Positions 22,240 through 60,696 of a DNA stretch of 64,000 nt are shown here, piece by piece (position 1 is the stretch's first letter; each line of letters begins with the position of its first letter). The DNA comes from an uncultured Flavobacteriales bacterium. Lineage in GTDB: Bacteria > Bacteroidota > Bacteroidia > CAIKAF01. The position numbers were made by a program, and so were the translations under genes. The stretch is from assembly GCA_903837495.1 (NCBI GenBank), contig CAILUT010000023.1:1-64000 (forward strand), written 5' to 3'. The notes under the pieces are model-generated. The model saw only the letters and a list, made by a program, of their open reading frames with translations, searched no databases and was not told where the DNA came from.

Positions 22240-22385
22240 CTGCGGCAGGGATTGACGGGGCTACCCCGCAAGGGTGCCGAAGCCTGGCCCGCTAGGTGCG
22301 GAGGCGACTTTAGGAGCCCCCGCAAACCAGCTGGGCCAGCTTTCGGCAACCGCGGAGTATGCCCGGAAAGCCCGGCTGCCGCCCC
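22240..22385 (+). repeat. Dispersed rod-hairpin repeat, copy B
   Basis: CTGCGGCAGGGATTGA...GCGGAGGCGACTTTAGGAGCCCCCGC...GGAAAGCCCGGCTGCCGCCCC. Confidence 0.9.
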
Positions 22386-22497
22386 AATAAATAATTTTAA
22401 ACATGCATGCCAAGGGGCTATAAATCCCGCACAAAATCAACAATGAAAAATCCGGATCTGCGGGCACACGCCTTTAAAACCCAGCTAAAATCGGCCT

Positions 22498-24087
22498 TTA
22501 TGCCTTTTTTACCAGCCGCCGCCGCACCAAAAACGTCAGCAGCAGCAAGCCCGAAATCCACGCCGAAAACCGCCCCAACCAATCGCCATATACCACATAC
22601 GGAGTGATGTGCTCGTTCAAGCGTATTTCCCCTTGCACCACCCCGCGGGTTTCGTAGGCCAGGGGCTGCTCCACATCGCCGCGCTGGTTAATGAAACAAG
22701 AAATCCCCGTGTTGGCCGAGCGGGCCACAGCCCTTCGCGTTTCAATGGCGCGCAGCCGAGCATACGCCAGCAGTTGCCTGTGCCCAGGGGTGTTCCCCCA
22801 CCAAGCATCGTTCGTAATTATTCCAAAATGGGTGGCCCCATTCCGCACAAACTCCGCACAAAACTCGCCAAAAACCGATTCATAGCAAACGACCGGCGCG
22901 GTCCTTAAATCCGTTCGTGCCGAGTGCAGCAGCACTGTGCGCTCCCGCTGTGTGCCCATGTCGCCCATTAGGCCTTGAATGCTGCTGAACAGCTTGTCTT
23001 GCAACGGCTTTAAAACCGAAGCAAAGGGCAGTTTTTCCACTCCGGGAACCAGTTTTGATTTGTGGTACAACCCATAGCTTTGGTCGGGGTTCAATAGTAT
23101 GGCGCTGTTGTGGTCGTCAATCCAAGCTCCATTTGGTCCGGGACTCGCGCTGCTGGGCACCGATTTTAGGTTGGCGGGCAGCCAGTCAACGCAATAAATT
23201 CCAGTAAGTACGGCTGTTTTTCCGTTTTGGGTTAAGGCGCGAAAGGGAGTTAAGGGGCCTTCGGCCTCTATTTTGTCCGACCAAATGGGCTGAGGCACCG
23301 CCGTTTCAGGGAACAAGATTAAATCTACCTCGGCCAAGGGTTCCGCCAAATCGATCATGGTTTTAATTTGCTGGGCCGAAGAGCCCCTAAATTTCTCGGT
23401 ATAGGGGTCAAAATTGGGCTGTACGCAGCCCATCCGGGCTTTGCTTCCTTGTTCTTCGTACGCTGCATAGCGCAGCAGCGAGGCGCTGCTGGGCAGCAGC
23501 AGCCACAAAACAGGAAAGGCGAGTGCTTTCACCTGTACGCGTCGCCCATTTCTCCACCATTCCCACAGGGCCAAATTCCCCACCAACACCCACAAAGTGC
23601 CGCCCAGAACTCCAGTAATTTCGTACCATTGCACCAGCCCATACCAGCCGGCAAAGCCATTTCCCAGCTGCAGCCAGGGCCAGGTCAGGTCCCAATTCAA
23701 ATGCAGGTATTCAAAGGCCAGCCAAAAAAGCAGCAGGGCCAGGTAGCCCCGTTGCCGCCCAAATTGCTGCCCCACTTGTTCGGCCAGCCACCAAACCAGG
23801 GCCATAAACAGGGCATTGCACAGAATGGCCATCACCGCTCCACCGGCGGTAGAATTCCATATCCACCATGTAGTCAGTGCGTTAAAGCTTAGAAATCCGG
23901 CCCAGGCATGCAAAAAAATCCGCATTCCCTTCTTGGGTCGGCTGTCGTTTCGCACCGATTCGTTCAGCCAAAGCAGGGGAATTAGGCCCAAGAACAGCAG
24001 CAGGGGCAGCCCGCGTTCTGGCCAAGCGGCGCCCAGTAAAATGCCTGAGAGCAAAGGCATCAGAGCGACAACCAAGGTTTTTTTCAT
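22498..24087 (-). CDS. lnt: Apolipoprotein N-acyltransferase
   Basis: N-terminal TM segments, nitrilase-like domain (LILFPETAVP, YHKSKLVPGVE, VVCYESVFGEF, AYARLRAIETRRAVARSANTGIS). Confidence 0.92.
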   Translation of the reverse strand: MKKTLVVALMPLLSGILLGAAWPERGLPLLLFLGLIPLLWLNESVRNDSRPKKGMRIFLHAWAGFLSFNALTTWWIWNSTAGGAVMAILCNALFMALVWWLAEQVGQQFGRQRGYLALLLFWLAFEYLHLNWDLTWPWLQLGNGFAGWYGLVQWYEITGVLGGTLWVLVGNLALWEWWRNGRRVQVKALAFPVLWLLLPSSASLLRYAAYEEQGSKARMGCVQPNFDPYTEKFRGSSAQQIKTMIDLAEPLAEVDLILFPETAVPQPIWSDKIEAEGPLTPFRALTQNGKTAVLTGIYCVDWLPANLKSVPSSASPGPNGAWIDDHNSAILLNPDQSYGLYHKSKLVPGVEKLPFASVLKPLQDKLFSSIQGLMGDMGTQRERTVLLHSARTDLRTAPVVCYESVFGEFCAEFVRNGATHFGIITNDAWWGNTPGHRQLLAYARLRAIETRRAVARSANTGISCFINQRGDVEQPLAYETRGVVQGEIRLNEHITPYVVYGDWLGRFSAWISGLLLLTFLVRRRLVKKA

Positions 24088-24179
24088 GGCTTAAAGGTAA
24101 AAAAATGCCCTCAGTGGCCCTAAAAATCTCGGTTAACAAATCGGGAATGCGAATGGGCCGTGGAATGTTTGGTTTTATA

Positions 24180-24323
24180 GGGCGGCAGCCGGGCTTTCGG
24201 CGGTAGTCCGCGGTCCTTAGCCTTGGGCCCAGCGGCTTTGCGGGGGCTCCTGAGGTCGCCTCCGCAGCACGCGGGCCCATGGCTTCGGCCCTTGCGGGCT
24301 ACCTGCCTCAATCCCTGCCGCGG
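24180..24323 (-). repeat. Dispersed rod-hairpin repeat, copy E
   Basis: Reverse complement CCGCGGCAGGGATTGAGGCAGGTAGCCCGC...GCGGAGGCGACCTCAGGAGCCCCCGC...CTACCGCCGAAAGCCCGGCTGCCGCCC. Confidence 0.9.
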
Positions 24324-24344
24324 GCCAACTCAAAAGCAAAACGC

Positions 24345-25973
24345 CTAGGTTTGAATAATCCCCGGATTAAATTCCCGAAGCCTAGGCGCCTGATTTGCGG
24401 CTTGCAAACCTGCCGAAATATAGGTTCGGGTTTGGGCTGGATCAATGATTTCGTCAACCCACAACCGAGCCGCCGCATAATAAGGGCTTGTTTGTGCATC
24501 GTACCTTTGGGTGATTTTGTTCAGCAATTCGGCTTCGGCCTCGGCGCTGGGTTCTTCGCCCCGGGCTTTCAGGGTGGCGGTTTGAATTTGCAGCAAGGTT
24601 TTGGCTGCTTGTGCCCCGCCCATTACGGCGATGCGTGCCGATGGCCAGGCAAAAATGAAACGGGGATCGTAGGCTTTGCCGCACATGGCGTAGTTTCCGG
24701 CCCCGTACGAATTTCCAATTACCACGGTGATTTTGGGCACCACGGAGTTCGATACGGCATTCACCATTTTGGCCCCGTCTTTAATGATGCCGCCGTGCTC
24801 CGAACGGCTGCCCACCATAAATCCGGTTACGTCGTGCAAAAACACCAAGGGGATGTGTTTTTGGTTGCAGTTCATGATAAATCGGGCGGCTTTATCGGCG
24901 CTGTCTGAATATATAACGCCCCCAAACTGCATTTCTCCTTTTTTGTTTTTTACCACCAAACGTTGGTTGGCCACAATGCCCACGGCCCAGCCGTCAATGC
25001 GGGCATAGGCGCAAACCAGGGTTTTGCCGTACCCGGCCTTGTATTCCTGAAATTCGCCGTCGTCGCACAGGCACTGCAGCAGGTCGCGCATGTCGTAGGG
25101 TTGGTCGCGGTTTTCGGGCAGCAATCCATATACATCGGTGCTGGGGCGGGCGGGCGGCTTAGCGGCCACTCGGTCGTATCCTGCATCTTGGGTTTTGCCC
25201 AGTTTATCAACGATGTATCGAATGCGTTTCAGGCAATCGGCATCGTCTTCGCAGGCATAATCGGCAACGCCTGAAATTTCAGAGTGGGTTAGGGCTCCGC
25301 CCAGGGTTTCGTTGTCCACATCTTCGCCTATGGCGGCCTTTACCAAATACGAACCGGCCAAAAAGATGGAGCCGGTTTTTTTAACAATCAGGGCCTCGTC
25401 GCTTAAAATGGGCAAATAGGCCCCGCCGGCAACACAAGGCCCCATAACGGCGGCAATTTGGGTTATTCCCATCGACGACATAATGGAATTGTTCCGAAAG
25501 ATGCGGCCAAAATGCTCTTTATCGGCAAACACTTCGTCTTGCCTGGGCAAATACACCCCGGCGCTGTCCACCAAATACACGATGGGCAAGCGGTTTTCCA
25601 TGGAAATTTCTTGGGCCCTTAGGTTTTTTTTTGCTGTGATTGGAAACCAGGCTCCGGCCTTTACGGTGGCATCGTTGGCCACCAACAGGCATTGCCTTCC
25701 GCTAACCGTTGCCAGTCCCATTATCACTCCACCCGCAGGACAGCCCCCCTCGTCGGGGTACATGTCTTCGCCGGCAAACAAGCCCAATTCTAAAAAGTCT
25801 GTTCCTTTGTCTTTCAAAAAATCAATCCGCTCGCGCGCCGTCATTTTTCCTTGACTCCGATGTTTTTCCTGTTTGGCTTTTCCGCCACCCAGGTACACTT
25901 TTTCTGCCTTGGTTTTTAGGTCTGACAACAGCAACCGCTGTGCGTCTTCGTTTTTATTAAACTTAAGGTCCAT
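24345..25973 (-). CDS. Acyl-CoA carboxylase carboxyltransferase (beta) subunit
   Basis: MTARERIDFLKDKGTDFLELG, DSAGVYLPRQDEVF, IPLVFLHDVTGFMVG, GAGNYAMCGKAYDPRFIFAWPSARIAVMGGAQAAKTL. Confidence 0.93.
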   Translation of the reverse strand: MDLKFNKNEDAQRLLLSDLKTKAEKVYLGGGKAKQEKHRSQGKMTARERIDFLKDKGTDFLELGLFAGEDMYPDEGGCPAGGVIMGLATVSGRQCLLVANDATVKAGAWFPITAKKNLRAQEISMENRLPIVYLVDSAGVYLPRQDEVFADKEHFGRIFRNNSIMSSMGITQIAAVMGPCVAGGAYLPILSDEALIVKKTGSIFLAGSYLVKAAIGEDVDNETLGGALTHSEISGVADYACEDDADCLKRIRYIVDKLGKTQDAGYDRVAAKPPARPSTDVYGLLPENRDQPYDMRDLLQCLCDDGEFQEYKAGYGKTLVCAYARIDGWAVGIVANQRLVVKNKKGEMQFGGVIYSDSADKAARFIMNCNQKHIPLVFLHDVTGFMVGSRSEHGGIIKDGAKMVNAVSNSVVPKITVVIGNSYGAGNYAMCGKAYDPRFIFAWPSARIAVMGGAQAAKTLLQIQTATLKARGEEPSAEAEAELLNKITQRYDAQTSPYYAAARLWVDEIIDPAQTRTYISAGLQAANQAPRLREFNPGIIQT

Positions 25974-26182
25974 TTCCTGAAAATTCTTGGGTAAAGATAG
26001 CGGTTGGGTTTTGTTTTTGGGTTTCTGTGTTCCCCAATTCTAGATTTCGATTCTGATTTTTTTAGGCCGAACTTGGATGGCCTGGGGCTCATTTCTTGGT
26101 TTTAAAGAACAATGAAAAAAAGGGCTTTTTCTTTGCCCTGCTCTGTCCATCAAATTACGCCATAGACTGCTACCTTTGTGGC

Positions 26183-28246
26183 ATGTCGAAACCCATAACC
26201 ATTACGGCGGCCTTGCCTTACGCCAATGGCCCTTTGCACATTGGGCATTTGGCCGGTGCTTATTTGCCCGCCGATATTTTTGCTCGATACCAACGCCTGC
26301 ACAATCAAGATGTTGCGTTTATTTGCGGTTCCGACGAACACGGCGCTGCCATTACCCTGCGCGCCCGCAAGGAAGGCATTAGCCCCAAAGAAATTATCGA
26401 TACCTACCATGAATTAAACCGAAAGGCCTTTGAGGATTTCGGTATTTCCTTTGACATTTACCACCGCACCTCTGATTCCCTACACCAAGAAACGGCCCAG
26501 GCCTTTTTTTTGAATTTGTTGGAAAAAGAAGCGTTGGAATTAAGGGAGTCGGAACAGTTCTACGATGAACAGTTTCAGCAGTTTTTGGCAGACCGATACA
26601 TTACAGGGGCTTGCCCCAAATGCAAAATGGCAGGAGCCTACGGAGACCAATGCGAAAAGTGCGGAAGTTCGTTGAATCCCGATGACCTGATTGATCCCAA
26701 ATCGACCTTGTCGGGAAGTACGCCGGTAAAGCGGAAAACCAGCCATTGGTATTTGCCCATGCAAAACCACCAAGAATGGCTGCAGCAATGGCTTAGTACG
26801 GGTCGGTTTGATGGCATGGCTTTCCCCATTACCGAACATCAGCCCAGTACATGGAAGGCCAATGTAATGGGGCAGTGTACGTCTTGGCTTCAAGATGGAC
26901 TAAAACCCCGGGCCATGACCCGCGATTTGGATTGGGGCGTTCCTGTGCCCCTTCCCAATTCGGAAGGCAAGGTGTTGTATGTTTGGCTTGATGCCCCAAT
27001 TGGGTACATATCGGCCACCAAAGCTTGGGCCGAACAAACGGGAAAATCTTGGCAACGGTACTGGGCCGAACCCGATGCCCGGCTGATTCATTTTATTGGG
27101 AAAGACAACATTGTTTTTCATTGCTTGATTTTCCCCATTTTGCTCAAAAGCCACGGCGGCTTTGTGCTGCCCGAAAATGTGCCGGCCAACGAATTTTTGA
27201 ACTTGGAGGGCCAAAAGATATCCACCAGCCGTAACCATGCTGTGTGGCTGCACGAGTACCTGCAGGATTTTCCCGGCAAACGCGACGAATTGCGCTATGT
27301 GTTGTGCTCCATTGCCCCTGAAACCGGCGACAGTGAATTTACCTGGAAAGATTTTCAAACCCGGGTGAACAGCGAATTGGTGGCCGTATTGGGCAATCTG
27401 GTAAACCGGGTTATGGTGCTGCACCATACATACTTTCAAGGAAAATGCACGCGTGCTTCCGGCTGCCTCAGTGCTGAACTTCAGGCTTCGGTTGAACGCA
27501 TGTACGGCGAACTTCAAAACCACGTTGAGGCCTACCGTTTTCGCAGTGGCTTGCAGTCGGTAATGGAGCTGGCAAGGGAAGGAAACCGGCATTTAACCCA
27601 ATGCGAACCGTGGAAAACCATAAAAACCAACCCAGAGCAAGCCCAAGCCGATTTGGAAGACATGCTGTGGATGTTGGCCCATTTGGCCTGCGGACTCCAG
27701 CCTTTTTTGCCCGACACCGCCCAAAAGATGTTGCACATGCTGAATTTGCCTGCTCAATTGGCATGGCAAGATGAAATTCAGTGGAACGCCGGCCATGCCT
27801 TAAACCCAACCCAAATGCTGTTTGAAAAAATAGAAGACGCCGACATGGAAAAACAAAGAGAGAAATTAAATCCGCCAGCGGCAGAACAAACAGCTGGGCC
27901 TTCTTTGGAGGCGGCACAAGCCCCCATCTCATTTCAGGATTTTAGCCGCTGCGACATTCGGGTGGCCACTGTTCTTTCGGCAGAACCCGTTGAAGGCGCC
28001 AACCGTTTGTTGAAATTAACCGTAGATACCGGCATCGATACCCGTACGGTGGTGAGTGGAATTGCCGAACACTACTCCCCAGAATCTGTGGTGGGACGAA
28101 AAGTGTGCCTCTTGGTTAATCTGGAACCGCGAAAACTGCGCGGGGTAGAGAGTCAGGGAATGGTATTGATGGCCCAGGATTTGGAAGGGCGTTTGCATTT
28201 TGTGGCTCCGCCCGAGGGGGTGAACAATGGAGCCCAGGTGAAATAA
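26183..28246 (+). CDS. metG: Methionyl-tRNA synthetase with C-terminal EMAP/Trbp111-type domain
   Basis: ALPYANGPLHIGHLAGAYLPADI, KISTSRNHAVW, C-terminal FSRCDIRVATVLSAEPVEGANRLLKL; TACCTTTG-N4-ATG at 26171-26185. Confidence 0.95.
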   Translation: MSKPITITAALPYANGPLHIGHLAGAYLPADIFARYQRLHNQDVAFICGSDEHGAAITLRARKEGISPKEIIDTYHELNRKAFEDFGISFDIYHRTSDSLHQETAQAFFLNLLEKEALELRESEQFYDEQFQQFLADRYITGACPKCKMAGAYGDQCEKCGSSLNPDDLIDPKSTLSGSTPVKRKTSHWYLPMQNHQEWLQQWLSTGRFDGMAFPITEHQPSTWKANVMGQCTSWLQDGLKPRAMTRDLDWGVPVPLPNSEGKVLYVWLDAPIGYISATKAWAEQTGKSWQRYWAEPDARLIHFIGKDNIVFHCLIFPILLKSHGGFVLPENVPANEFLNLEGQKISTSRNHAVWLHEYLQDFPGKRDELRYVLCSIAPETGDSEFTWKDFQTRVNSELVAVLGNLVNRVMVLHHTYFQGKCTRASGCLSAELQASVERMYGELQNHVEAYRFRSGLQSVMELAREGNRHLTQCEPWKTIKTNPEQAQADLEDMLWMLAHLACGLQPFLPDTAQKMLHMLNLPAQLAWQDEIQWNAGHALNPTQMLFEKIEDADMEKQREKLNPPAAEQTAGPSLEAAQAPISFQDFSRCDIRVATVLSAEPVEGANRLLKLTVDTGIDTRTVVSGIAEHYSPESVVGRKVCLLVNLEPRKLRGVESQGMVLMAQDLEGRLHFVAPPEGVNNGAQVK

Positions 28247-28248
28247 GC

Positions 28249-29571
28249 ATGGCAGGTACGGAAAAGTCCGGTCCGCTTTCGATTCAGCTTCCTGAATTTT
28301 GGCCCAAGTTTGAACAGGCCGCTGCGCAGGAATCGCATGTGGCGGTATTTTACGATCAGGGTTTTGCGCCCGATTCCATTGCAGGGCTGTACAGGCCGCC
28401 CTTGCTTTCTATGGTTTTGGCTTGGGGGGCCGAAGCGGTTTATTTGGGAGGAGGCGAACCGAATCCCTTTGGGCAGAAAGACGCTCTTGATGCCTGGCTG
28501 GGTGCCTGGAGTTACGATTCGGGTTGGGCCGCCGCTATGCCCCAAAAATCCCCGTTTGAATGGGCAGCAGAAGGGGGAGTTTCCTTTTTTAAACCCCGAA
28601 ACCTGCTGTACTTTAATGGTACAAATTGGACATTTCGGGGCGAAGCCCAGGCCTTGGTTCAATCCTGGTTGCAGCAGTCTGCTTGGAAACCGCAGACGCT
28701 TTCGGTGGAAAAAACCAAGGTGAAAGCCCGCTGGCGGTTTTCGAGGTCGGCCTATTTGCAAAAGGCCGAAACCCTGCTGCGCCATATTCAGCGGGGAGAC
28801 ATCTATGAAGTGAATTTTTGCAACTGCCTGGAATTGGAATCCGAACTTGCACATCCCTTTCAGGAATGGAAGCGATTGATGGCCGCCTCGCCCATGCCTT
28901 TTGCCTGTTACCTTAAAACGCCTCAGCTGGAATTGCTGTCGGCCAGTCCAGAACGGTTTTTGGCCTGCCAAGGCAGCACCCTGTTTTCTCAACCCATGAA
29001 AGGGACTCGGCCCCGGGGCAAAACCATAGAGGAAGACTTGGCCGCCGCTCGCCACTTAGAAACCGATGCCAAAGAGCGGTCAGAAAACATCATGATTTGC
29101 GATTTGGTGCGCAACGATTTGAGCAAAGTGGCGGAACGCGGCAGCGTGGTGGTGAAAGACTTATGCCAGGTGTTGCCCTTTAAAACCGTACATCAAATGA
29201 TTTCAACGGTGGAGTGTAGGGTAAGACCAGAGATTTCATTGCAGCAGATTTGGGAAGCCGCCTTTCCGATGGGAAGCATGACCGGGGCCCCCAAGGTGCG
29301 GGCCATGGAATTGATTGCCGAGCAAGAAGAACAGCCCCGCGGATATTTTTCGGGCAGCGCAGCGTATTGGATTCCGGGGCTTGGATTTGAAAGCACCGTG
29401 TTGATTCGGAGTTTGATGCGAAGGGCGGGAGGTCATTGGCAAATTGGGGTGGGTTCGGCCCTAACTGCCGTTTGCAATCCCCAGGAAGAATGGGAAGAAT
29501 GCCAATGGAAAATTGCCCCCTTTGCCCAGATTTTCAACCTTGAACTTATGGACAATGCAGAACCGGTTTAA
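28249..29571 (+). CDS. pabB: Aminodeoxychorismate synthase component I-like (chorismate-binding)
   Basis: GDIYEVNFCN, SASPERFLAC, MKGTRPRGKT, SENIMICDLVRNDLSKVA, PMGSMTGAPKVRAMELIAE. Confidence 0.9.
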   Translation: MAGTEKSGPLSIQLPEFWPKFEQAAAQESHVAVFYDQGFAPDSIAGLYRPPLLSMVLAWGAEAVYLGGGEPNPFGQKDALDAWLGAWSYDSGWAAAMPQKSPFEWAAEGGVSFFKPRNLLYFNGTNWTFRGEAQALVQSWLQQSAWKPQTLSVEKTKVKARWRFSRSAYLQKAETLLRHIQRGDIYEVNFCNCLELESELAHPFQEWKRLMAASPMPFACYLKTPQLELLSASPERFLACQGSTLFSQPMKGTRPRGKTIEEDLAAARHLETDAKERSENIMICDLVRNDLSKVAERGSVVVKDLCQVLPFKTVHQMISTVECRVRPEISLQQIWEAAFPMGSMTGAPKVRAMELIAEQEEQPRGYFSGSAAYWIPGLGFESTVLIRSLMRRAGGHWQIGVGSALTAVCNPQEEWEECQWKIAPFAQIFNLELMDNAEPV

Positions 29572-30871
29572 TGACTTTGTGCGTCGGCATGGAATGCCCG
29601 AGCCCCCGGCCGCCTTGCTGTTGCTGGTTAGCGGCGGAGTCGATTCCATGGTCTTGCTGCATCTGTTGCAGCAGGCAGGGTATGCAGTAAAATGCCTGCA
29701 CGTCAATTATGGATTGCGTGGGCAGGCCTCAGACCTTGATCAGCAGCTCATCGAACAGGTATGCCAAGAACTCCAAATGCCCTTGCAGGTTTGGCGTTGC
29801 GGCCCCGAAGAACTCAAAGGCAACATACAGCTAAAGGCCCGAGAAATACGGTATGGGTTGGCGGAAAAATATGTTCAGGAATGGGATTGTGAGGCCATTG
29901 CCACGGCTCACCACTTGGACGATTCATTGGAAACCTTTTGGTTGAATTTGGTGAGGGGAACCGGCATAGACGGCATAAAAGGAATTTCGCCCTTTTTTGC
30001 CGGCAAGATGCGCCCTTTGTTGTGGGCCAGGGCTGAGGAAATCAGAGCCTTTGCCGAAGAGCAGGGAATACCTTGGCGGGAAGACGAAAGCAATGCCCAG
30101 GATGCCTACCGAAGGAATGTGCTGCGCCACCATGTTTTGCCTCAGCTAAAATCATGGAATCCCAAATGGGAGGAAGGGTTTGCCCAAACCTTAGAAAAAC
30201 TGCAAACCACTGCCGACATGCAGCGGGTGCATTTGAACCGACTTCGGCAACAGCTGTTGCACGAAGACGAAACCACTGGAGAATGGAAAATATCGGTTTT
30301 GGAGCTTGCCGGTTCTGGAATCAATGCCATTGCTTTTGCTTGGTTGTTGGCACCCTATGGGTTTTCAGAAGCCCAGGGCCGTCAGGTTTTTGCCTTGCTT
30401 GAAGGCGAAAATGGAAAGCGGATTGTAGGAGCAGGCCATACGGCCTATTTAAACATGCCATTTATATTTATTCGGGAGCAAGCAGAACCGGAATTGCCCG
30501 AATGGAAGTGCAGCGTTCGGCAGCTTATGCAAGGGCAGTGTGCTTGGGTGAAAGCAACGGAATGTGAACAGGGGCGTTTAGAAGAGAACCCCTTGTTGTG
30601 TTCGGTTTGGGTGGAAGACGGGGATGCGGAAATGGAAATTCGGCCCTGGAGGTCGGGCGATAAAATTCCATTTGGCAAGGGAAGTAAGAAGGTAAGCGAT
30701 GTATTGAACGAAGCTGGGGTATTGGTGTTGGACAAGCCGCAGCGGTATGTGGTTGCCTTGAATGGAATTGTGCTGTGGGTGCTGGGCTTGCGCAAAGCGC
30801 CTTGTAGGGAGTCGAACAAGGGTATTTGCTTGGAATTGCGTTGGGAAGGGCCCTTGGATTTGCGGGATTGA
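29555..30871 (+). CDS. tilS: tRNA(Ile)-lysidine synthase
   Basis: LLVSGGVDSMVLLHLL PP-loop, HVNYGLRGQASD, TAHHLDDSLETFWLNLVRGTGI; overlaps end of pabB. Confidence 0.93.
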   Translation: MQNRFNDFVRRHGMPEPPAALLLLVSGGVDSMVLLHLLQQAGYAVKCLHVNYGLRGQASDLDQQLIEQVCQELQMPLQVWRCGPEELKGNIQLKAREIRYGLAEKYVQEWDCEAIATAHHLDDSLETFWLNLVRGTGIDGIKGISPFFAGKMRPLLWARAEEIRAFAEEQGIPWREDESNAQDAYRRNVLRHHVLPQLKSWNPKWEEGFAQTLEKLQTTADMQRVHLNRLRQQLLHEDETTGEWKISVLELAGSGINAIAFAWLLAPYGFSEAQGRQVFALLEGENGKRIVGAGHTAYLNMPFIFIREQAEPELPEWKCSVRQLMQGQCAWVKATECEQGRLEENPLLCSVWVEDGDAEMEIRPWRSGDKIPFGKGSKKVSDVLNEAGVLVLDKPQRYVVALNGIVLWVLGLRKAPCRESNKGICLELRWEGPLDLRD

Positions 30872-30910
30872 GTTCATCTAATTTGGCGCGGTTTTATTCA
30901 GGGTTAGGCC

Positions 30911-31053
30911 CTGCGGCAGGGATTGAGCCGGGTAGCCCACAGGCAACGGCCGCTGTGCCCGCGCGGCGCGGAGGCGACTTTAGGAGCCCCCGCAAGCCCG
31001 CTGGGCACAACGGCTGTGGCCGAGGACTACCGGCGAAAGCCCGGCTGCCGCCC
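30911..31053 (+). repeat. Dispersed rod-hairpin repeat, copy C
   Basis: CTGCGGCAGGGATTGAGCCGGGTAG...GCGGAGGCGACTTTAGGAGCCCCCGC...CTACCGGCGAAAGCCCGGCTGCCGCCC then T+8A. Confidence 0.92.
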
Positions 31054-31090
31054 TAAAAAAAACAGATTGCAAAACACCTAATCTGTCCAT

Positions 31091-31558
31091 TTAATTGAAC
31101 TCCCAGCGGCGGCTTTCCATTTTTATAAAACGGCGGGTAACTTCGCGGTCGGTGCCGGGCTTTAAATCCGAAAAAATCAACTTCATTTTTCGGATTCCGT
31201 CTTTTTCAAGGGCAATTATGCCGGGTTGCCGAGCGGGTTCGGCCTGAAAATAAATGCCGCTGGCCCTTTTTCGGCCCGAATAGCTGCTTTGAACTGCGTT
31301 TTTGGGCGGAGTGTACAAGCAAGTGAGCTGCCCGTTGCGTTCGATCAACAGCCAGCGCTCCTGCATTTTGGCAGTCTGATACCGCAATATGCCCTCTAAA
31401 CTGCCGTCTTGCAACCGGCTCCAAACAAATACCTGAGAAGGGTCGGTTTCGTTTTTCCAACTTCCTTGCAACCAATACAAGGTGCGGATGGTTTGGTTGG
31501 GAACCTGAGCCTGAAGTTTTAGGCCAAACACGCATATAAAAACGAGCAGGGTTCTCAT
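31091..31558 (-). CDS. Secreted hypothetical protein
   Basis: Signal peptide MRTLLVFICVFGLKLQAQ; TLYWLQGSWKNETDPSQVFVWSRLQDGSLEG. Confidence 0.7.
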   Translation of the reverse strand: MRTLLVFICVFGLKLQAQVPNQTIRTLYWLQGSWKNETDPSQVFVWSRLQDGSLEGILRYQTAKMQERWLLIERNGQLTCLYTPPKNAVQSSYSGRKRASGIYFQAEPARQPGIIALEKDGIRKMKLIFSDLKPGTDREVTRRFIKMESRRWEFN

Positions 31559-46733: not shown

Positions 46734-46879
46734 CTGCGGGCGGGATTGAGCTAGGTAGCCCGCAATGCCGGCTTGGTTGCTGCCCCTGTGCTGCGCAGGC
46801 GACCTTGGGAGCCCGCGCAAAGCCAGAGGGCAGCCCAAGGCGGCAGCGGACTACCTGCGAAAGCCCGAAAACCCGCCCC
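46734..46879 (+). repeat. Dispersed rod-hairpin repeat, copy D
   Basis: CTGCGGGCGGGATTGAGCTAGGTAG...GCGCAGGCGACCTTGGGAGCCCGCGC...CTACCTGCGAAAGCCCGAAAACCCGCCCC. Confidence 0.9.
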
Positions 46880-48847: not shown

Positions 48848-48898
48848 TTTCTCCCCCGATTTCCAGAGGTGGAACTCTGGTTTTTGGTTTTGGTTTTT

Positions 48899-49043
48899 GG
48901 GCGGTGGCCGGGCTTTCGCCGGTAGTCCGCTGCGCAACCTGTTTGCCCCAGCGGCTTTACGCGGGCTCCCAAGGTCGCCTGCGCAGCACGCGGGGCAATG
49001 CAGGTTTCGCCTTGCGGGCAACCGGGCTCAATCCCTACCGCAG
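48899..49043 (-). repeat. Dispersed rod-hairpin repeat, copy F
   Basis: Reverse complement CTGCGGTAGGGATTGAGCCCGGTTG...GCGCAGGCGACCTTGGGAGCCCGCGT...CTACCGGCGAAAGCCCGGCCACCGCCC. Confidence 0.9.
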
Positions 49044-50213: not shown

Positions 50214-50296
50214 GGCAGCAAAGGTAGGCAATAGCTCCGACAGTTGGCTTGGGCCTTGGGTTAAAATACGTCAAGAAAGGCCGAGGGTTCTTGAAT

Positions 50297-52116: not shown

Positions 52117-52442
52117 AGCATAAGTTCAACGGATGGATCCCAAAAGAGTTTATTAAAACCGACAATGCAATGGTCTTTAACCAAAATGCCTTCGGCGTTC
52201 AGCAGCGCTTCCATGGCTCCGGGGCCCTCAAAATGGTGTTGGCCCGACAGCATGCCCGTTCGGTTTACCACGCGGTGGGCGGGCACGGGCGGTTGCACTT
52301 GGTGCGAGGCATTCATGGCCCAGCCAACGGTGCGGGCCGACTTCCCACTGCCCAAATACCGGGCAATGGCCCCGTAGCTGCTTACTCGGCCGGGCGGAAT
52401 CTGCCGCACCACCTGATGCACCAAATCAAAAAAATCATTCAA
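52113..52442 (-). CDS. Alkyltransferase-like (ATL) MGMT-domain protein lacking the acceptor Cys (PAHRV)
   Basis: QVVRQIPPGRVSSYGAIARYLGSGKSARTVGWAM...PVPAHRVVNRTGMLSG; probable TTG start overlaps trmB stop. Confidence 0.8.
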   Translation of the reverse strand: MNDFFDLVHQVVRQIPPGRVSSYGAIARYLGSGKSARTVGWAMNASHQVQPPVPAHRVVNRTGMLSGQHHFEGPGAMEALLNAEGILVKDHCIVGFNKLFWDPSVELML

Positions 52443-53118
52443 GGGGTTCGGTTCCAAGTTCAAAACAAAGGTAGTGAATGCGGCGGCCTTGTTCCAGCCA
52501 CATCGATTCATAAAAGGTGCGAATGCCCAATTCGGGGTGGTTTGGCCAGGCGGCATGCACATCGCGGAATTGGTGGAGAATGGGGAGATTTTGTTCTTGA
52601 ACCACTTGCAGGCTGTAGTCAAAAAGCTCGGGCGAATCCGTTTTCAGGTGAATTAAGGTCGAGGGCTTCATGCACCGGCGGTAGGTGGACAAAAATCGGG
52701 GCGAGGTCAGCCTTTTCATTGCCTTGCTGTCGCGCAGTTGGGGGTCGGGAAACACAATCCAGACCTGATCAATCTGGTCTTGCAGGGTAAAAAGTCGGTG
52801 CAGTTGACCAATGTGTTGCCGCACAAAAGCCACGTGTTTCCAATTTTTTTCTTGTGCGGTCAGGGCTCCACGCCAAAGTCGGGCGCCTTTCACGTCCATG
52901 CCCACAAAATTCCGTTCGGGGTACAGCTCGGCCAGGCCCACCGAGTATTCGCCACGGCCGCAAGCCAATTCCAGGGTAATGGGGTTTTGATTTCCAAAAA
53001 AATCCGTCCATTTCCCTTTCAGAGGAAACGAATCCGTGTTTATTTCATCAAAAGTAGGCTGAAACACATGCTCGAAGGTCGCATTTTCAGCAAACCGCTT
53101 TAATTTATTTTTACCCAT
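52435..53118 (-). CDS. trmB: tRNA (guanine-N7-)-methyltransferase
   Basis: LELACGRGEYSVGLAELYPERNFVGMDVKGARLW, FPDPQLRDSKAMKRLTSPRFL, HLKTDSPELFDYS. Confidence 0.93.
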   Translation of the reverse strand: MGKNKLKRFAENATFEHVFQPTFDEINTDSFPLKGKWTDFFGNQNPITLELACGRGEYSVGLAELYPERNFVGMDVKGARLWRGALTAQEKNWKHVAFVRQHIGQLHRLFTLQDQIDQVWIVFPDPQLRDSKAMKRLTSPRFLSTYRRCMKPSTLIHLKTDSPELFDYSLQVVQEQNLPILHQFRDVHAAWPNHPELGIRTFYESMWLEQGRRIHYLCFELGTEPLE

Positions 53119-53217
53119 ACGGGGGCAAAGATAGGCTGCTTCGGCAAAAAAAGGGGCTTTGAGGAAGGGTTCGGGCATTAGAAAAAAGCAAATCCAATTT
53201 CAGGGGTATTTTTTAGT

Positions 53218-53362
53218 GGGGCGGCTGCGGGCTTTCACCGGTTGTCCGCGGTTGTCGGGGGCTTCCCCAGCGGGCTTGCGGGGGCTCCCAAGGTCGCCTC
53301 CGCGCCTCGCGGGGCAGTCCCCGGCAGCCTTGCGGGCAACCCGGTTCAATCCCTGCCGCGGG
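53218..53362 (-). repeat. Dispersed rod-hairpin repeat, copy G
   Basis: Reverse complement CCGCGGCAGGGATTGAACCGGGTTG...GCGGAGGCGACCTTGGGAGCCCCCGC...CAACCGGTGAAAGCCCGCAGCCGCCCC. Confidence 0.92.
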
Positions 53363-53812
53363 CGGGGTACTGCCCTTGGCCACAAAAACATCTAAAACTG
53401 ATCAAGACCGAATGCGAACAGGCTCAGGGACTTAATCTAAGCTGCTGAAAATTATGTGCAGCCAAATCCGTTAAATATCAAGGGGTTGTGGTAAAAAGGT
53501 TGCGGTTGAACAGAAAAATGTTGTAGGCTTCCCTTAAATTGGACAGGTTGAAATCAAATTTTCCACCTTTTTTAGCTGCGATTTGGCGCAAGGAGTTTTC
53601 ACCACTTTTTATCTGGCTTGCTTTTTGATTTTATAAAGATCAAATTGGCATAGAACCAGCTAGCTTTAATTGCCAGGATCTCAAGGCCCCCAATCAATTT
53701 CGGTTAATTTAGGCAGACAAGGCGGCTGTAAATTATTGTTGACCTTATGCTTGAATATTAAGTAAGCTTTTCTTTACTTTGCTGTGGAGGCAAAAGCCAT
53801 TGATGTTCAAAA

Positions 53813-53998
53813 ATGAAATGCTCAGCGTTAATGAAAATTCTAAAGAAGAACGGTTGGTTTGCAATTTCTCAGAAAGGGTCTCATGTAAAGATGATGCATG
53901 CAGAGAGGCATAACGTATTAATTGTACCTAATCATGGAAGTGCGGAAGTCGGAAAAGGCTTGGAAAGGAAGATTCTCAAAGATGCTGGTATCAAATAA
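53813..53998 (+). CDS. hicA: HicA-family mRNA interferase toxin
   Basis: LMKILKKNGWFAISQKGSHVKMMHAERHNVLIVPNHGSAEVGKGLERKILKDAGI. Confidence 0.9.
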   Translation: MKCSALMKILKKNGWFAISQKGSHVKMMHAERHNVLIVPNHGSAEVGKGLERKILKDAGIK

Positions 53999-54016
53999 TT
54001 CCAATTTCTTGAAATC

Positions 54017-54406
54017 ATGAAACTTAAAAAGAAATTCAAATTTATTGTTGAGAAAACGGAAACAGGATTTTCAGCCTTTTCAGAGGATACGCCTGTTTAC
54101 ACAACCGGTAAAAACATAACGGAACTTCAAAACAACATTGTTGAGGCAATCGAACTTGCTTTTGATGCAACTCAACCCAAGTTTAGCAAGGAAAATGTGG
54201 AACTTGAAATGGATTTAAAACAATTCTTCAGCTATTACAAGGTCTTAAACTCAAGATACTTGGCCGAAAGAATTGGAATGAATCCAACCTTGTTCTCACA
54301 ATATGTGAATGGCCATAAAAAACCTTCTGCAAAACAAACAATAAGAATTCTTAATGGGTTGAATGAGATTGGTCGCGAGTTGGCAAACCTACAATTCACA
54401 GGATAA
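54017..54406 (+). CDS. hicB: HicB-family antitoxin with C-terminal HTH
   Basis: FIVEKTETGFSAFSEDTPVYTTGKNITELQNNIVEAIELAF, HTH LAERIGMNPTLFSQYVNGHKKPSAKQTIRIL; adjacent to hicA. Confidence 0.88.
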   Translation: MKLKKKFKFIVEKTETGFSAFSEDTPVYTTGKNITELQNNIVEAIELAFDATQPKFSKENVELEMDLKQFFSYYKVLNSRYLAERIGMNPTLFSQYVNGHKKPSAKQTIRILNGLNEIGRELANLQFTG

Positions 54407-54616
54407 TTCATAAATACCATACAGCCCAGCCTATTGACAGCCAATCTTTACAGCTGCCTTTTTTTCGGAACGATTCTGTGCGTAGTATTCATGCAACTTT
54501 TTACTTGTTTTGCCCTAATGCGGTTAAAAAGGTAATTTAGAGCGGCAAATGGCATTGAAATCGAATTGTTAGACGAACTGACGGTATAGGGCATTATATT
54601 AAACCACCATAGCTAC

Positions 54617-55492
54617 ATGCAGCAACGTTCCATACGCATCAATAAATTTATTAGCGAAAGCGGTTTTTGTTCCCGGCGCGAAGCCGACCGTTTTATTGAA
54701 AGAGGCGTTGTATTCATAAACGAACGCAAAGCCAATACCGGCGATCAGGTGAAGGCGGGCGACAGGGTTCGGGTGAACGGACAAAAACTGGAACCCTTCC
54801 AAGGCGAAGACATTGTTTTTATTGCATTGAATAAACCGGTGGGTATAACCTCAACAACCGAAGACAATGTGCGCAACAACATTGTGGAATTTGTGAACCA
54901 CAGCAAACGTGTTTTTCCCATTGGTCGTTTGGATAAAGAATCGCAGGGGCTCATATTTTTGACCAACAATGGCGATTTGGTGAACAAGATTCTGCGGGCA
55001 GGAAACAACCACCAAAAGGAATACGTTGTAACGGTGAACAAGCCTTTAACCCAAAGTGTGATCACCGCTATGGCGAATGGCGTTCCTATGCTTGGCGTTA
55101 CAACCAAAAAATGTAAGGTGGTGCAGGAAGGAGTAAATTCGTTTCGAATTGTTTTGATTCAAGGGCTAAACCGGCAGATTCGCAGGATGTGCGAGCATTT
55201 CGGTTATGAGGTAACTAAGCTGGAGCGGGTTCGCATTATGAATGTTGATTTGAAAGGTTTGCCGGTGGGCGATTGGAGAGATTTAACGGAAAGCGAAATG
55301 AAGGTCATGTACAGCATGCTGGAAGAATCATCAGGGGTAGTTGAAACAAAACCAAAGTCCAAGCAACCCGCTAAAAAAGGCAAACCCTCGAACCTCAAAA
55401 CACCCGGCTCAAAAAAATCCATGCCGGGTCATTCATCCAATTTTAACCGGAACACAAAGGGCAAAGCCCCACGCAGATCAGGTAGGAGCTGA
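54617..55492 (+). CDS. RluB/RluF-type 23S rRNA pseudouridine synthase
   Basis: S4 domain ([24 protein letters not shown]), [39 protein letters not shown]. Confidence 0.9.
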
Positions 55493-55651
55493 AACAGCCC
55501 AGACGTGTGGTGTTTTTCAGAAAAGGTATCCGTGTAAACCCCCAAATCAAATTCAACACCGCATTAACCTTTAATTAAAGGATGTGCTTCCATTCGGCTT
55601 GCTCCCTGCCACTTTGGGCTTTTTGTTACCTTTGTGCATAGTTGTTTTTCC

Positions 55652-58069
55652 ATGCAAGACGTTCCATTAAGCACACGCCCTTTAGACACCGACCGGATAT
55701 CGTTTGAGGATTTTCGCGCCGAGGTGTTGCACGATTACCGCATAGCACACGAAAGCCGTCAAACCAGTTTGTTGGGTCGGCGTGAGGTGTTGACCGGCAA
55801 AGCCAAGTTTGGCATTTTTGGCGACGGCAAAGAATTGCCTCAAATCGCCATGGCCAAGGTGTTTAAACCCGGTGATTTTCGTTCCGGATATTACCGCGAC
55901 CAAACCTTTATGATGGCCGCGGGGCTGCTCACCGTTCGTCAGTTTTTTGCTCAACTGTATGCCCACACCGACATTGAAGCCGAACCCATGACCGGCGGAC
56001 GCCAAATGAACGGGCATTACGCCACCCGTTGGATAGATGGAAACGGAAACTGGCAATCGCAAACCAATCAAAAAAATTCTTCGGCCGATATTTCTCCCAC
56101 CGCCGGGCAAATGCCCCGGCTGCTTGGCCTGGCCTTGGCCTCGAAGGTGTACCGCAATCAACCCGAATTGCATCACCTCAGCTCATTCTCGCATCAGGGA
56201 AATGAAGTTGCCTTTGGCAGCATTGGCGATGCATCGACCTCCGAAGGCTTGTTCTGGGAAACCATGAATGCCGCCGCCGTTATGCAAGTCCCTATGGCCA
56301 TTTCAGTATGGGACGATGGCTACGGCATTTCGGTACCCAAGGAATTTCAAACCACCAAAGGCTCTATTTCTAAAGCCCTTGCGGGTTTTGAAAAAAACGA
56401 GGACGGACCAGGATTTGCCATAAAACGGGCTAGAGCCTGGAATTATCCAGAATTAATCGAGGCCTACCAAACGGGAGTGGCCATGTGCCGGCAAGACCAT
56501 TTGCCGGTTTTATTCCACATTGAAGAGTGTACCCAACCGCAAGGCCATTCCACCAGCGGAAGCCATGAACGCTACAAGGACAAAAAACGCCTGCAATGGG
56601 AAGAAAAGTACGATGGCTTGCGCCAGTTTGTAAAATGGATTGTGAAAAATGGATTGGCTACCGAAGAAGAATTGCTCGCGATAGAAGAAGCCGCCATTCA
56701 ACATGTGAAGGAGGAGAAAAATGCCGCTTGGCAGGCTTATCAAAATGAAATTACAGCCGAGCAGCAGGCTTTAATTGGACTTATTCGGGAGCTACACAAT
56801 CCAGATGCACAGGCTCAGGAATGGATTCGGCAAATTGAAACCGCAGGTTCCCCAATGCGCAAAGATTTGTTGGGCCCAGCCCGCCGGTTGGCAACCCACC
56901 TTCGCTTGCAACACCATGAATTTTATCCCCGCCTAAAAGCCTGGCTCGTGGAACAGCAGCTCATCAATCATGGGCGGTACAGCGATTCTTTGTACGACGA
57001 ATCCCTGAACAGCCCCCTGCGCGTAGAAATGGTGGAACCCGTTTATACCGCAGATTCAGCCATGGTGGATGGACGCATTGTGCTAAGGGATAATTTTGAT
57101 GCCATTTTAGAGAAGGACCCTCGCTTTGTGGCTTTTGGTGAAGACGTTGGAAAAATTGGAGGAGTGAACCAAACCTTTGAGGGACTGCAAGATAAATTTG
57201 GCCCAGGTCGGGTTTTCGATACCGGAATACGCGAGGCTACCATTGCTGGTCAAGGCATTGGAATGGCCATGCGCGGCCTTAGACCCTACGCCGAAATTCA
57301 ATACTTAGATTACCTGCTCTATTGCCTTCAAATTTTAAGCGACGACGCCTCAACCGTGCAGTACCGTACCAAAGGCGGTCAAAAGGCTCCCGTTATCATC
57401 GGAACGCGGGGGCATAGATTAGAGGGCATTTGGCATTCGGGTTCCCCAATGGGGGCCATTGTGCACAGCGTTCGCGGCATGCATGTGTGCGTGCCGCGCA
57501 ACATGGTACAAGCCGCAGGAATGTACAACACCCTTTTTAAAGGCGAAGATCCGGCCATTGTGGTTGAACCCTTAAATGGTTACCGTTTAAAGGAGCGCCG
57601 TCCGGATAACATGGGTGAATTTACCGTGCCTTTAGGTGAACCTGAAATTTTGCGTCAAGGCGAAACCATCTCTTTGGTAACCTATGGCTCCATGTGTAGG
57701 ATTGCTCTGGAAGCCGCTGAACTATTGAGCGGTATGGGCATAGATGCGGAAGTGGTTGACGTACAAACACTGCTTCCTTTTGACATCAATCATAAAACGG
57801 TAGCGTCTTTGCAGAAAACCGGCCGAGTGGTATTTATGGACGAAGACGTACCGGGAGGAGCTTCGGCCTACATGATGCAGCAGGTTTTAGAGGTTCAGGG
57901 CGGATATCGATACCTGGATGTAGCTCCTGCCACCCTAAGTGCAAAGGCACATCGCCCAGCTTATGGAACCGATGGAGATTATTTTTCAAAACCGGGAGTG
58001 GAAGATGTGGTAGAAAAGGTGCTGTTTATGATGCACGAGGTGAATCCACGCAAGTTCCCTGCCGAATAA
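55652..58069 (+). CDS. Fused alpha/beta E1 component of 2-oxoacid (branched-chain) dehydrogenase
   Basis: N-terminal E1-alpha half (HQGNEVAFGSIGDASTSEGLFWETMNAA), C-terminal E1-beta half (FGEDVGKIGGVNQTFEGLQDKFG...DTGIREATIAGQGIGMAMRGLRPYAEIQYLDY). Confidence 0.9.
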   Translation: MQDVPLSTRPLDTDRISFEDFRAEVLHDYRIAHESRQTSLLGRREVLTGKAKFGIFGDGKELPQIAMAKVFKPGDFRSGYYRDQTFMMAAGLLTVRQFFAQLYAHTDIEAEPMTGGRQMNGHYATRWIDGNGNWQSQTNQKNSSADISPTAGQMPRLLGLALASKVYRNQPELHHLSSFSHQGNEVAFGSIGDASTSEGLFWETMNAAAVMQVPMAISVWDDGYGISVPKEFQTTKGSISKALAGFEKNEDGPGFAIKRARAWNYPELIEAYQTGVAMCRQDHLPVLFHIEECTQPQGHSTSGSHERYKDKKRLQWEEKYDGLRQFVKWIVKNGLATEEELLAIEEAAIQHVKEEKNAAWQAYQNEITAEQQALIGLIRELHNPDAQAQEWIRQIETAGSPMRKDLLGPARRLATHLRLQHHEFYPRLKAWLVEQQLINHGRYSDSLYDESLNSPLRVEMVEPVYTADSAMVDGRIVLRDNFDAILEKDPRFVAFGEDVGKIGGVNQTFEGLQDKFGPGRVFDTGIREATIAGQGIGMAMRGLRPYAEIQYLDYLLYCLQILSDDASTVQYRTKGGQKAPVIIGTRGHRLEGIWHSGSPMGAIVHSVRGMHVCVPRNMVQAAGMYNTLFKGEDPAIVVEPLNGYRLKERRPDNMGEFTVPLGEPEILRQGETISLVTYGSMCRIALEAAELLSGMGIDAEVVDVQTLLPFDINHKTVASLQKTGRVVFMDEDVPGGASAYMMQQVLEVQGGYRYLDVAPATLSAKAHRPAYGTDGDYFSKPGVEDVVEKVLFMMHEVNPRKFPAE

Positions 58070-58074
58070 TTCCT

Positions 58075-58887
58075 ATGTCTAAAACGACCGAATCGGGTTC
58101 GGGTCGGCGGGGATTGGAAACCTGGTCAACCTTAGATTTGCTTCAGGGCATCAACGCCGAAGACAAAAAGGTGGCCGAAGCGGTCGAAAAGGCCATTCCA
58201 GCCATGATTCCATTGGCCGATGCTTTTGCGGAATGCCTGAAAAACAACCGCCGTGTATTTTATATTGGGGCGGGAACCAGCGGTAGGCTAGGGGTGGTGG
58301 ATGCCTCAGAATTGCCTCCCACCTATGGAATTGAATTCGACAGGGTGGTTGGAATTATGGCGGGTGGCGATGGGGCCATTCGCAAGGCCGTTGAATTTGC
58401 CGAGGACAATGTGGAACAGGCCTGGAAAGATTTGTTGGCCCAAGGAGCAGGTTCTGGCGATTTGGTGATTGGCATTGCGGCTTCGGGTTCAACGCCTTAT
58501 GTTGTGTCGGGCATTGAGCGGGCACGAAAAGAAGGGCTCCGGACCGGAGGCATAACCATGAACCAAGGCTCTGCCTTGGCCAAAGCCGCCGAATTCCCAG
58601 TTGAAATTGTGGTTGGCCCCGAATTTGTGCGGGGCAGCACTCGAATGAAATCGGGAACAGCCCAAAAGCTGGCTTTGAACATGCTAAGTACCGCCGCCAT
58701 GATTCGCTTGGGTCGGGTAAAGGACGAAAAAATGGTGGACATGCAACTGACCAACCATAAATTGTGGCAGCGTGCGGTCGATATGGTCATTGAAGAAACG
58801 GGCGTTGCACCCGAGGTAGCCCGTAAAGCCTTAGAGAAATGGGCTAGTGTTCGCAAAGCGGTTGAAGGCTTGAGGCAAGGCCTATAG
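58075..58887 (+). CDS. murQ: N-acetylmuramic acid 6-phosphate etherase
   Basis: RVFYIGAGTSGRLGVVDASELPPTYG, MAGGDGAIRKAVE, IAASGSTPYVVSGIERA, MKSGTAQKLALNMLSTAAMIRLG. Confidence 0.95.
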   Translation: MSKTTESGSGRRGLETWSTLDLLQGINAEDKKVAEAVEKAIPAMIPLADAFAECLKNNRRVFYIGAGTSGRLGVVDASELPPTYGIEFDRVVGIMAGGDGAIRKAVEFAEDNVEQAWKDLLAQGAGSGDLVIGIAASGSTPYVVSGIERARKEGLRTGGITMNQGSALAKAAEFPVEIVVGPEFVRGSTRMKSGTAQKLALNMLSTAAMIRLGRVKDEKMVDMQLTNHKLWQRAVDMVIEETGVAPEVARKALEKWASVRKAVEGLRQGL

Positions 58888-58908
58888 GTGCCAATTCAAG
58901 CTGCTTTT

Positions 58909-60483
58909 TTAATAGGTAATGACGATTTGCCCATTCCCATTGCGAATACCCGTTTGCATGGACGCATTGCTAAGGTTGCCCGTGTAGCCGGAGCCGCCAC
59001 CGCCAGAGGATGCAATGTTTGTTCCTGAGGACTGGTATCCTCCGCCCCCGCCGCCATAATAGCCTGCACCGCCCCCACCCCCAGTGGAGTCGCCACCGGG
59101 AAATCCAGCGCCGCCCTGCCCAAGTGTTCCAGCCGAGCCGGTTTGATTCCCGACTCCGCCATTTCCCCCGGCATTCTGTGTGCCTGCACCACCTCCGGTT
59201 GCTGTTCCACTGCCATTTGAGACAGTTCCTGCACTAGTCCCTGAGTTTCCACCGCCTTGTCCCGGACTTGTGGAACTGAAATTGCCTGAATACAAGGTGC
59301 AGGAGCCTCCGCCGCCGCCAGCAACAATGACTCGATCGGAAAGAGATTGACCGCCCACCCGAACGTCGCTGCCTCCACCACCCCCACCGCTGGCTGGGTA
59401 TCCGGAGGTTTGTCCGGAGCCGCCGCCGTTCCAGCCGCCGCTTGGATTTCCTCCTTGGCCGCCCACATACAGGTATAAAACCTGCCCGGGGCTTACGGAC
59501 AAATCACCTTTGGAATATCCTCCAGCTGCTCCAGTGGATGTTGAGCTGCCGCCTTGAGCTCCCAAGCATTCCAATGTTACGCTGCTAACGCAGGTTGCGG
59601 GTACGGTCCAGCTTTGCTGTCCGCCCGTGTACGAAAAGGCAACTTGATTTTGCCCGGGTGCTGGGCAATTGGTCACGGTTACCGATTGGGTTGAGCTGTC
59701 GGTGCATCCATTTTGGTCAGCAACCACCAGCTTTACGGAATTGCTGCCCGTGGCAGAATAGGTTACGCTTGGATTTGCGGAGCTCGATGTATTGGGAGTT
59801 CCGTTTTGGAAGGTCCAGGCATATTGCAGGCCTTGGCTGTTTGCAGTAAAGGTGGCGGCTTGGTTGGTAATGGGTTGAGCGGGATTAACAGTAAAACCCG
59901 GATTTGGGTTTGCTGCCAGGTAATTTATAGAAAGGGCAGAAGCCGTTCCGCAGTAATTAGAAGCCACAACGGAAAGGGTCCCTGGACCAGAACTAAAGTC
60001 AACCGTTATTAAGGTATCTCCTTGGCCAGATTGCACCGTAGCTCCGCCGGTTGCCGACCAAGTGTAGGTTGAAGCACCCGGAACGGGGGCAACATGGTAT
60101 TGCACCGCTGATTGTTGGGCACATACTTGGGTTGGGCCTAGAATGCTTTGGGGAGCCGGCGGAGGAGCGGAACAGCTGCACGAAAAGGCTTTCCATCCTG
60201 ATGCGTGGTACACTTCCATGCATTCGTTGCTGCTGTTGTAAATCATGAGGCCAGGGCTGGGGCTAAGAATGGCGTTGCGTTGGGCGGTGCTCAATCGGGG
60301 CAATAAAAGTCCGCCGGTGGTGGATTTCACTTCAAGCGTTGCTGAGGGGTCTGCCGGCGTATTGGAACCGATGGTAACGCCTTGAGCGGTTGAGGTTGTT
60401 GAGAAATATAGAAATAAAGCAATCAGATAAAACCCGGAGATTCGGAAGCCGTTGGAAATGAGCGAAGTTGGAAGGCCTTTCAT
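58909..60483 (-). CDS. Secreted PKD-domain protein with C-terminal ALK/LTK-type glycine-rich domain
   Basis: MKGLPTSLISN start; PKD-like YAWTFQNGTPNTSSSANPSVTYSATGSNSVKLVVADQNGC; Gly-rich YVGGQGGNPSGGWNGGGSGQTSGYPASGGGGGGSDVR...GYTGNLSN...NGQIVITY. Confidence 0.7.
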   Translation of the reverse strand: MKGLPTSLISNGFRISGFYLIALFLYFSTTSTAQGVTIGSNTPADPSATLEVKSTTGGLLLPRLSTAQRNAILSPSPGLMIYNSSNECMEVYHASGWKAFSCSCSAPPPAPQSILGPTQVCAQQSAVQYHVAPVPGASTYTWSATGGATVQSGQGDTLITVDFSSGPGTLSVVASNYCGTASALSINYLAANPNPGFTVNPAQPITNQAATFTANSQGLQYAWTFQNGTPNTSSSANPSVTYSATGSNSVKLVVADQNGCTDSSTQSVTVTNCPAPGQNQVAFSYTGGQQSWTVPATCVSSVTLECLGAQGGSSTSTGAAGGYSKGDLSVSPGQVLYLYVGGQGGNPSGGWNGGGSGQTSGYPASGGGGGGSDVRVGGQSLSDRVIVAGGGGGSCTLYSGNFSSTSPGQGGGNSGTSAGTVSNGSGTATGGGAGTQNAGGNGGVGNQTGSAGTLGQGGAGFPGGDSTGGGGGAGYYGGGGGGYQSSGTNIASSGGGGSGYTGNLSNASMQTGIRNGNGQIVITY

Positions 60484-60552
60484 AGAAATGGGTGCGAAAT
60501 AAGGGTTGAAGATACACAGAAAGGGATTTAGAACATCGCCTAAGGCTTGAGT

Positions 60553-60696
60553 TTGCGGCAGGGATGGAAGTAGGTAGCCCGCATAGGTGGAACCGTAGGC
60601 GGCGCGCGGCGTAGGGGGCGACCTTGGGAGCCACCCGGAGCCCGCTGCCGGCACGGTTGCACCTGCGGACTACCACTGACAGCCCGTTTGCCGCCC
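60553..60696 (+). repeat. Dispersed rod-hairpin repeat, copy H (diverged)
   Basis: TTGCGGCAGGGATGGAAGTAGGTAGCCCGC...GGGGGCGACCTTGGGAGCCACCC...CTACCACTGACAGCCCGTTTGCCGCCC then 7A. Confidence 0.88.

Follow-up and report, generated by a model that had tools for sequence, protein, structure and literature searches.

ERIC and bcr1-type repeats are intergenic imperfect palindromes of similar length to the element described here, with copies that carry compensating changes, and the attC sites of integrons are imperfect hairpins formed by a single strand, in which the bulges are conserved, the tip varies and recognition goes by structure. The former belong to phyla other than that of the element, and the surroundings of its copies showed no cassette array or integrase context. 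REPs measure 21-65 nt, carry a 5' GT[AG]G foot and occur with a RAYT (TnpA-REP) (PMC6006769). As a high-copy extragenic imperfect palindrome with inverted close pairs and a position at gene 3' ends, the element resembles REPs, BIMEs and REPINs, but it is a rod of 145 nt rather than a 21-65 nt hairpin on a GT[AG]G foot (its GTAG lies within a helix and is replaced in relatives), its genome has no RAYT, and the RAYTs of its congeners go with other REPs. By this analogy, we favour the view that it may work like a REP or BIME, though it belongs to neither.

The Flavo-1 RNA motif (RF01705), described by Weinberg et al. 2010 (PMC2864571), has a gathering threshold of 42 bits. It shares with the element a basal architecture of 3 bp, one bulge, 2 bp, a GA tandem and a further stem, as well as a variable inner rod and a dispersed distribution in Bacteroidota; sequence models link the two through intermediates, and an A-rich 3' tail is common to the element and most Flavo-1 loci. 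The two differ in length (about 145 nt for the element, 76 for Flavo-1), in the second hairpin found 3' of many short Flavo-1 forms, which has shrunk to a few bases in the long element, and in copy number, the element reaching about 175 copies per genome, unlike Flavo-1.

The rod and its fixed unpaired features

The window is a stretch of 64,000 nt from the start of a contig (C23; CAILUT010000023.1 of assembly GCA_903837495.1) of an uncultured aquatic Flavobacteriales bacterium (genome G000). Its features are given below with their state in the sister species (G005) and in genomes G002 and G003; R2 is a model built from congeners G001 and G004 only.

1 to 36, + strand: copy A, 3' end of the element, matching the 3' arm (R2 14.7 bits, model positions 112-148)
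11698 to 11761, - strand: short Flavo-1-like hairpin, absent from the first-pass annotation (RF01705 28.1 bits, below threshold; R2 16.5 bits)
22240 to 22385, + strand: copy B, in a convergent gap, orthologous in G005, none found in the G002 gap
24180 to 24323, - strand: copy C, orthologous in G005, a copy in G002 too
30911 to 31053, + strand: copy D, in a convergent gap, orthologous in G005, site empty in G002 and G003
46734 to 46879, + strand: copy E, with the same outer helix and a different inner core in G005 (core swap), in G002 and G003 too
48899 to 49043, - strand: copy F, in a convergent gap, orthologous in G005, site empty in G002 and G003
53218 to 53362, - strand: copy G, orthologous in G005
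60553 to 60696, + strand: copy H, orthologous in G005, facing stop codon 7 nt from its 3' end

The first-pass annotation had proposed seven full copies of one long imperfect hairpin; all seven are present, with coordinates that shift by at most 1 nt, and they share one imperfect rod with an RNA minimum free energy of -75 to -91 kcal/mol. It had also read positions 1-36 as a truncated copy, which is not a biological truncation, because base 1 of the window is base 1 of contig C23, whose start cuts the copy; contig ends fall inside a copy at several contigs. An RNAalifold alignment of the seven copies gave 51 pairs, 26 of which had changed at both positions at least once. R2 detects 7/7 full copies at 110-127 bits, and since this model was derived from congeners, the structure is no artefact of the training set. 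Among individual copies, B belongs to a subfamily of about 20 copies that are 93-97% identical, and the basal stem of H carries TG/CA in place of TT/AA, with the tandem G-A retained. The short hairpin at 11698-11761 is followed by a second hairpin and then by a CGCCCCCAAAT tail.

Strong covariation between copies, claimed from the window, is borne out in the sister species, where 82 copies have standard pairs in 94.5% of cells (71.0 +/- 0.5% when shuffled) and show 805 both-side changes as against 206 +/- 13, counts that are inflated by divergent inheritance within subfamilies. None of 500 shuffles reached any of these measures, and when partners were slid by 1-3 columns the both-side changes fell to 98-176. 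The alternative pairings originally listed as evidence do covary, but they are not all independent events, because the copies form subfamilies.

The outer and tip features hardly vary across 142 distinct copies, and the middle helix is variable yet complementary. Unpaired positions are fixed at both ends of the rod, as GGG-A-TT-GA opposite GA-AA-G-CCC at the base and as GGC-GA-C-NTTN-G-GA-GCC at the tip; the two end bases of the tip loop covary (CTTG in 58 copies, TTTA in 53 and GTTA in 9). Both motifs are kept in at least 95% of 125 copies, in every gene context. The element is an imperfect rod of about 145 nt, in which Watson-Crick pairing is maintained through sequence change.

Copy number, spread and relation to Flavo-1

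The high genome-wide copy number that had been extrapolated from the window, with its implication that copies are not confined there, agrees with the genome itself: a core pattern searched with up to 3 mismatches gave 175 matches in 2.51 Mb (2 for a reversed-pattern control), and R1, a covariance model made from the seven full window copies, found at least 150 copies in the same 2.51-Mb genome. Some pairs of copies are 93-97% identical and mark out subfamilies. All five congeners searched carry many copies (45-53 of the 53 candidates scored); in the class at large, where 8 candidates were scored in each genome, R1 has matches in at least 23 out of 396, and these include shorter forms of 70-105 nt. 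A phage origin was rejected, since neither the viral contigs nor the phage records searched held a match to the element.

The statement that the element corresponds to no named Rfam family stands in the formal sense, in that no copy in the window reaches an Rfam threshold, and fails in that intermediates chain the element to Flavo-1. On long forms the RF01705 model stays far under its threshold (21.2 bits for one long copy), and because the long copies score below it, the element is not a member of Flavo-1 by Rfam's own rule. The same model gives 26-40 bits on the short forms found by R1 and 25-29 bits on short hairpins of the element's own genome, including the one in the window. Of 40 relatives, 8 have Flavo-1 matches that exceed the threshold, and one locus, L260, passes the Flavo-1 model at 55 bits and is detected by R2 as well (E 9e-4). 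Homology through intermediates is therefore supported by both the R1 short forms and a locus recognized by both models. In addition, the basal bulged stem with its GA tandem that characterizes Flavo-1 is present in the alignments of the long element, in at least 95% of the 125 copies. We conclude, from sequence comparison, that the element is a long-rod, genus-level relative of Flavo-1.

Orthologous sites and the question of mobility

Each of the seven full window copies has a counterpart in the orthologous gap of G005, and across the sampled stretches an ortholog exists for 41 of the copies that could be placed by their flanks, clear absences being few. In 40 ortholog pairs the median identity is 95%, as against 62-69% in the flanks (random 42%); in 17 window genes, identity at four-fold synonymous sites is 68%. 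The ortholog is nearer than any paralog in 28 of 39 copies, so concerted evolution is not mainly responsible. Within the 40 pairs we counted 18 compensatory double changes that restore Watson-Crick pairing, GC to CG among them. Selection on the hairpin structure, as first suggested from the window, is supported by the covariation, by these compensatory changes and by the low rate of change at orthologous sites. Inner cores are occasionally exchanged between copies: at a minority of loci the core does not resemble that of the ortholog, copy E being the clearest case. At one G005 site the 3' arm alone is left, identical over about 40 nt.

The swapped cores bear on whether the covariation could be a by-product of DNA metabolism, made without function by arm-to-arm correction of palindromes and by conversion between copies. 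As the middle of the hairpin is contiguous, one conversion tract alters both arms; the core of E, which differs between G000 and G005 inside a conserved outer helix, and similar loci would fit such a process, as would compensatory changes that include GC to CG. Arm correction would, however, remove the bulges and G-A tandems, whereas these are present in almost every copy and in other families as well, and the process leaves unexplained both the 95% identity at orthologous sites and orthologs that are closer than paralogs. We regard this account as highly improbable.

A non-autonomous mobile element, whose fold is only a transposase recognition site (cf. REPs/RAYT and IS200/IS605 ends) and whose transposase has possibly since been lost, would suit the high copy number and subfamily bursts, the lineage-specific sites (D and F empty in G002 and G003, where E is occupied, and no copy found at B in G002), the BIME-like head-to-head pairs, and the copies that adjoin some RAYT loci in G001 and G004. 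Mobilization of the RAYT/REP kind was tested because in genome G029 a Y1_Tnp gene has a Flavo-1 match 176 bp away, and it was not supported. Scanning of 42 Y1_Tnp loci, ten of which were read by eye, found other REPs flanking the genes read, those of the congeners' Y1_Tnp genes being roughly 20 nt; the other scanned loci were without the element apart from a few bystander copies, and among 20 weaker Y1 loci a copy was in reach at only one. Searches for Y1_Tnp (RAYT) gave 0 matches in G000 and in its sister G005, and none in the Flavo-1-rich genomes G024 and G030; the elements are plentiful in genomes without this gene. No autonomous version with a gene between two halves was found in about 2.5 Mb of sequence. 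Of the MITE hallmarks, terminal inverted repeats with target-site duplications, the element has a terminal helix, and the flanks of copies gave no clear signal of duplications, the empty sites being too diverged for the junctions to be read. Moreover, about 254 kb of synteny between G001 and G004 contains one polymorphic copy, and the conservation at fixed sites goes beyond the needs of a recognition site alone. On this evidence, mobility as the sole reason for the fold appears unlikely.

Placement at gene ends and strand of action

The copies are intergenic and oriented with respect to the genes around them. Measured from the 3' end, the facing stop codon is a median of 28 nt away, whereas a stop on the 5' side has a median distance of 174 nt; in convergent gaps it is the 3' end that lies nearer in 35 cases out of 41. 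In the sampled stretches copies occupy 27 of 60 convergent gaps, compared with 46 of 288 where the genes are codirectional and 7 of 56 where they diverge, these context counts covering 125-142 of the 175 copies and coming from stretches chosen for holding copies. The 3' tail is A-rich, with a run of at least 5 A within 14 nt in 60% of copies and in 5% of background windows, and is also seen at many Flavo-1-type loci of other families. All 9 pairs closer than 400 bp are arranged head-to-head (chance 4e-6 if the four arrangements are equally likely), as are close pairs in G001, G002, G004 and G005, an arrangement that would follow from a constant orientation relative to gene ends. No significant bias to the leading (G-rich) strand was detected (44 vs 32). 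An intrinsic terminator was rejected, because the A/T runs flank the hairpin on the sides opposite to those that a terminator requires.

Placement near stop codons, together with the strong covariation, a tip similar to stable RNA tetraloops and the filing of Flavo-1 in Rfam as 'Gene; sRNA', is what would be expected of an element acting at the RNA level, either as a structured small RNA or as a 3'-UTR hairpin involved in protecting or processing mRNAs whose ends lie next to it. Against this, G-U makes up about 1% of pairs overall and is about as rare as A-C (77 vs 67), and single changes between orthologs comprise 11 G-U and 9 A-C. The unpaired motifs are equally kept in copies with and against the neighboring genes, and the ratio of G-U to A-C does not flip between these two groups. 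Upstream flanks were not conserved in the ortholog comparison, and a promoter of its own was rejected, the exact box TAnnTTTG not being enriched (3 vs 2.4) and a weak excess appearing only at one mismatch (46 vs 33). In a transcript map of F. psychrophilum, moreover, Flavo-1 matches are reported in sense and antisense orientation to transcribed regions without distinction, with many outside them, and show no consistent sense relation (PMC9723704). Action at the RNA level therefore seems rather unlikely to us; the low G-U, the independence of gene direction, the unconserved upstream flanks, the lack of exact-promoter enrichment and the transcript map indirectly favor action as DNA, on the + strand.

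Within the inner rod alone, G-U is commoner than A-C (roughly 50 vs 17 cells), an excess that speaks for RNA and weighs against the DNA reading, since some RNA-level constraint would give it too.

Our leading explanation, which we put forward tentatively and at a little under an even chance, is that this long-rod relative of Flavo-1, present between genes in high copy number, has a + strand which a protein recognizes as folded DNA at gene 3' ends, in a manner like that of REPs and BIMEs. The + strand would fold when single-stranded or when extruded as a cruciform, and the protein would recognize the tandem G-A, the bulge and the tip features of the folded strand. That copies lie at gene 3' ends, and most of all where genes converge, suggests a role of the REP/BIME type, which may be protein docking or the control of topology where transcription stops. 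The copies were probably multiplied in bursts, with selection retaining them afterwards. Hairpin DNA of this length is expected to be deletion-prone, yet the copies are stable, an observation that goes against the folded-DNA reading.

A broader form of this proposal, possible though doubtful in our estimation, is that Flavo-1 and its long-rod relative are not small RNAs, and would instead constitute a Bacteroidota-wide class of DNA hairpins set in constant orientation to gene 3' ends, recognized by a putative structure-specific protein and under strong per-site selection. With sister species at useful distances and about 175 well-conserved long copies per genome, this genus makes the nature of Flavo-1 testable, and per-site selection, polarity towards gene ends and the strand of action can all be measured in it. 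Flavo-1 has been without a known function since its description in 2010; if the element acts as DNA, a family filed under small RNAs would need reclassifying, and a protein partner would have to be sought.

Orientation of close copy pairs

Head-to-head was the sole orientation among close pairs of copies, with a spacing of 47-50 nt in several; the set comprised six other pairs and those in three stretches of sequence:

L102:8677-9040, close head-to-head copy pair
L109:1501-1838, close head-to-head copy pair
L120:1501-1837, close head-to-head copy pair

RAYT loci and unrelated elements

Three of the four independent RAYT loci in the congeners G001 and G004 had Flavo-1-type copies at most ~420 bp away (L339, L340, L342, L343, L344), even though these RAYTs have REPs of their own. 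Arrays of short REPs, each gene-specific in sequence, e.g. GCTCCTACGGAGC and GACCCCTTCGGGGTC, border the Y1_Tnp genes of congeners and relatives (L338-L346, L351).

An unrelated MITE-like element (~160-220 bp, ends GAGACCGTTGACGCGTTG) was polymorphic between G001 and G004 in syntenic stretches, e.g. the L153/L164-L168 and L169-L176 regions. Two SAM-I/IV riboswitches lay 1.4 kb apart in L096, and two 33-nt terminator-like hairpins of the same sequence lay 422 bp apart in the window:

L096:1846-1940, first SAM-I/IV riboswitch
L096:3257-3351, second SAM-I/IV riboswitch
window 20354-20386, terminator-like hairpin, 33 nt
window 20776-20808, terminator-like hairpin, 33 nt

Short Flavo-1-like hairpins

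One short relative was found in the window; after it come another hairpin, GTGCCGGC/GCCGGCAC, then a CGCCCCCAAATAAA tail:

window 11698-11761, minus strand, Flavo-1-like short hairpin (RF01705, 28.1 bits, below threshold)

The first-pass search with R1, the covariance model of the seven full window copies, returned ~1,300-3,500 candidates per genome in family f9 (G023, G162, G234, G388), the highest among the genomes listed, and short Flavo-1-like hairpins may be very abundant in these four genomes.
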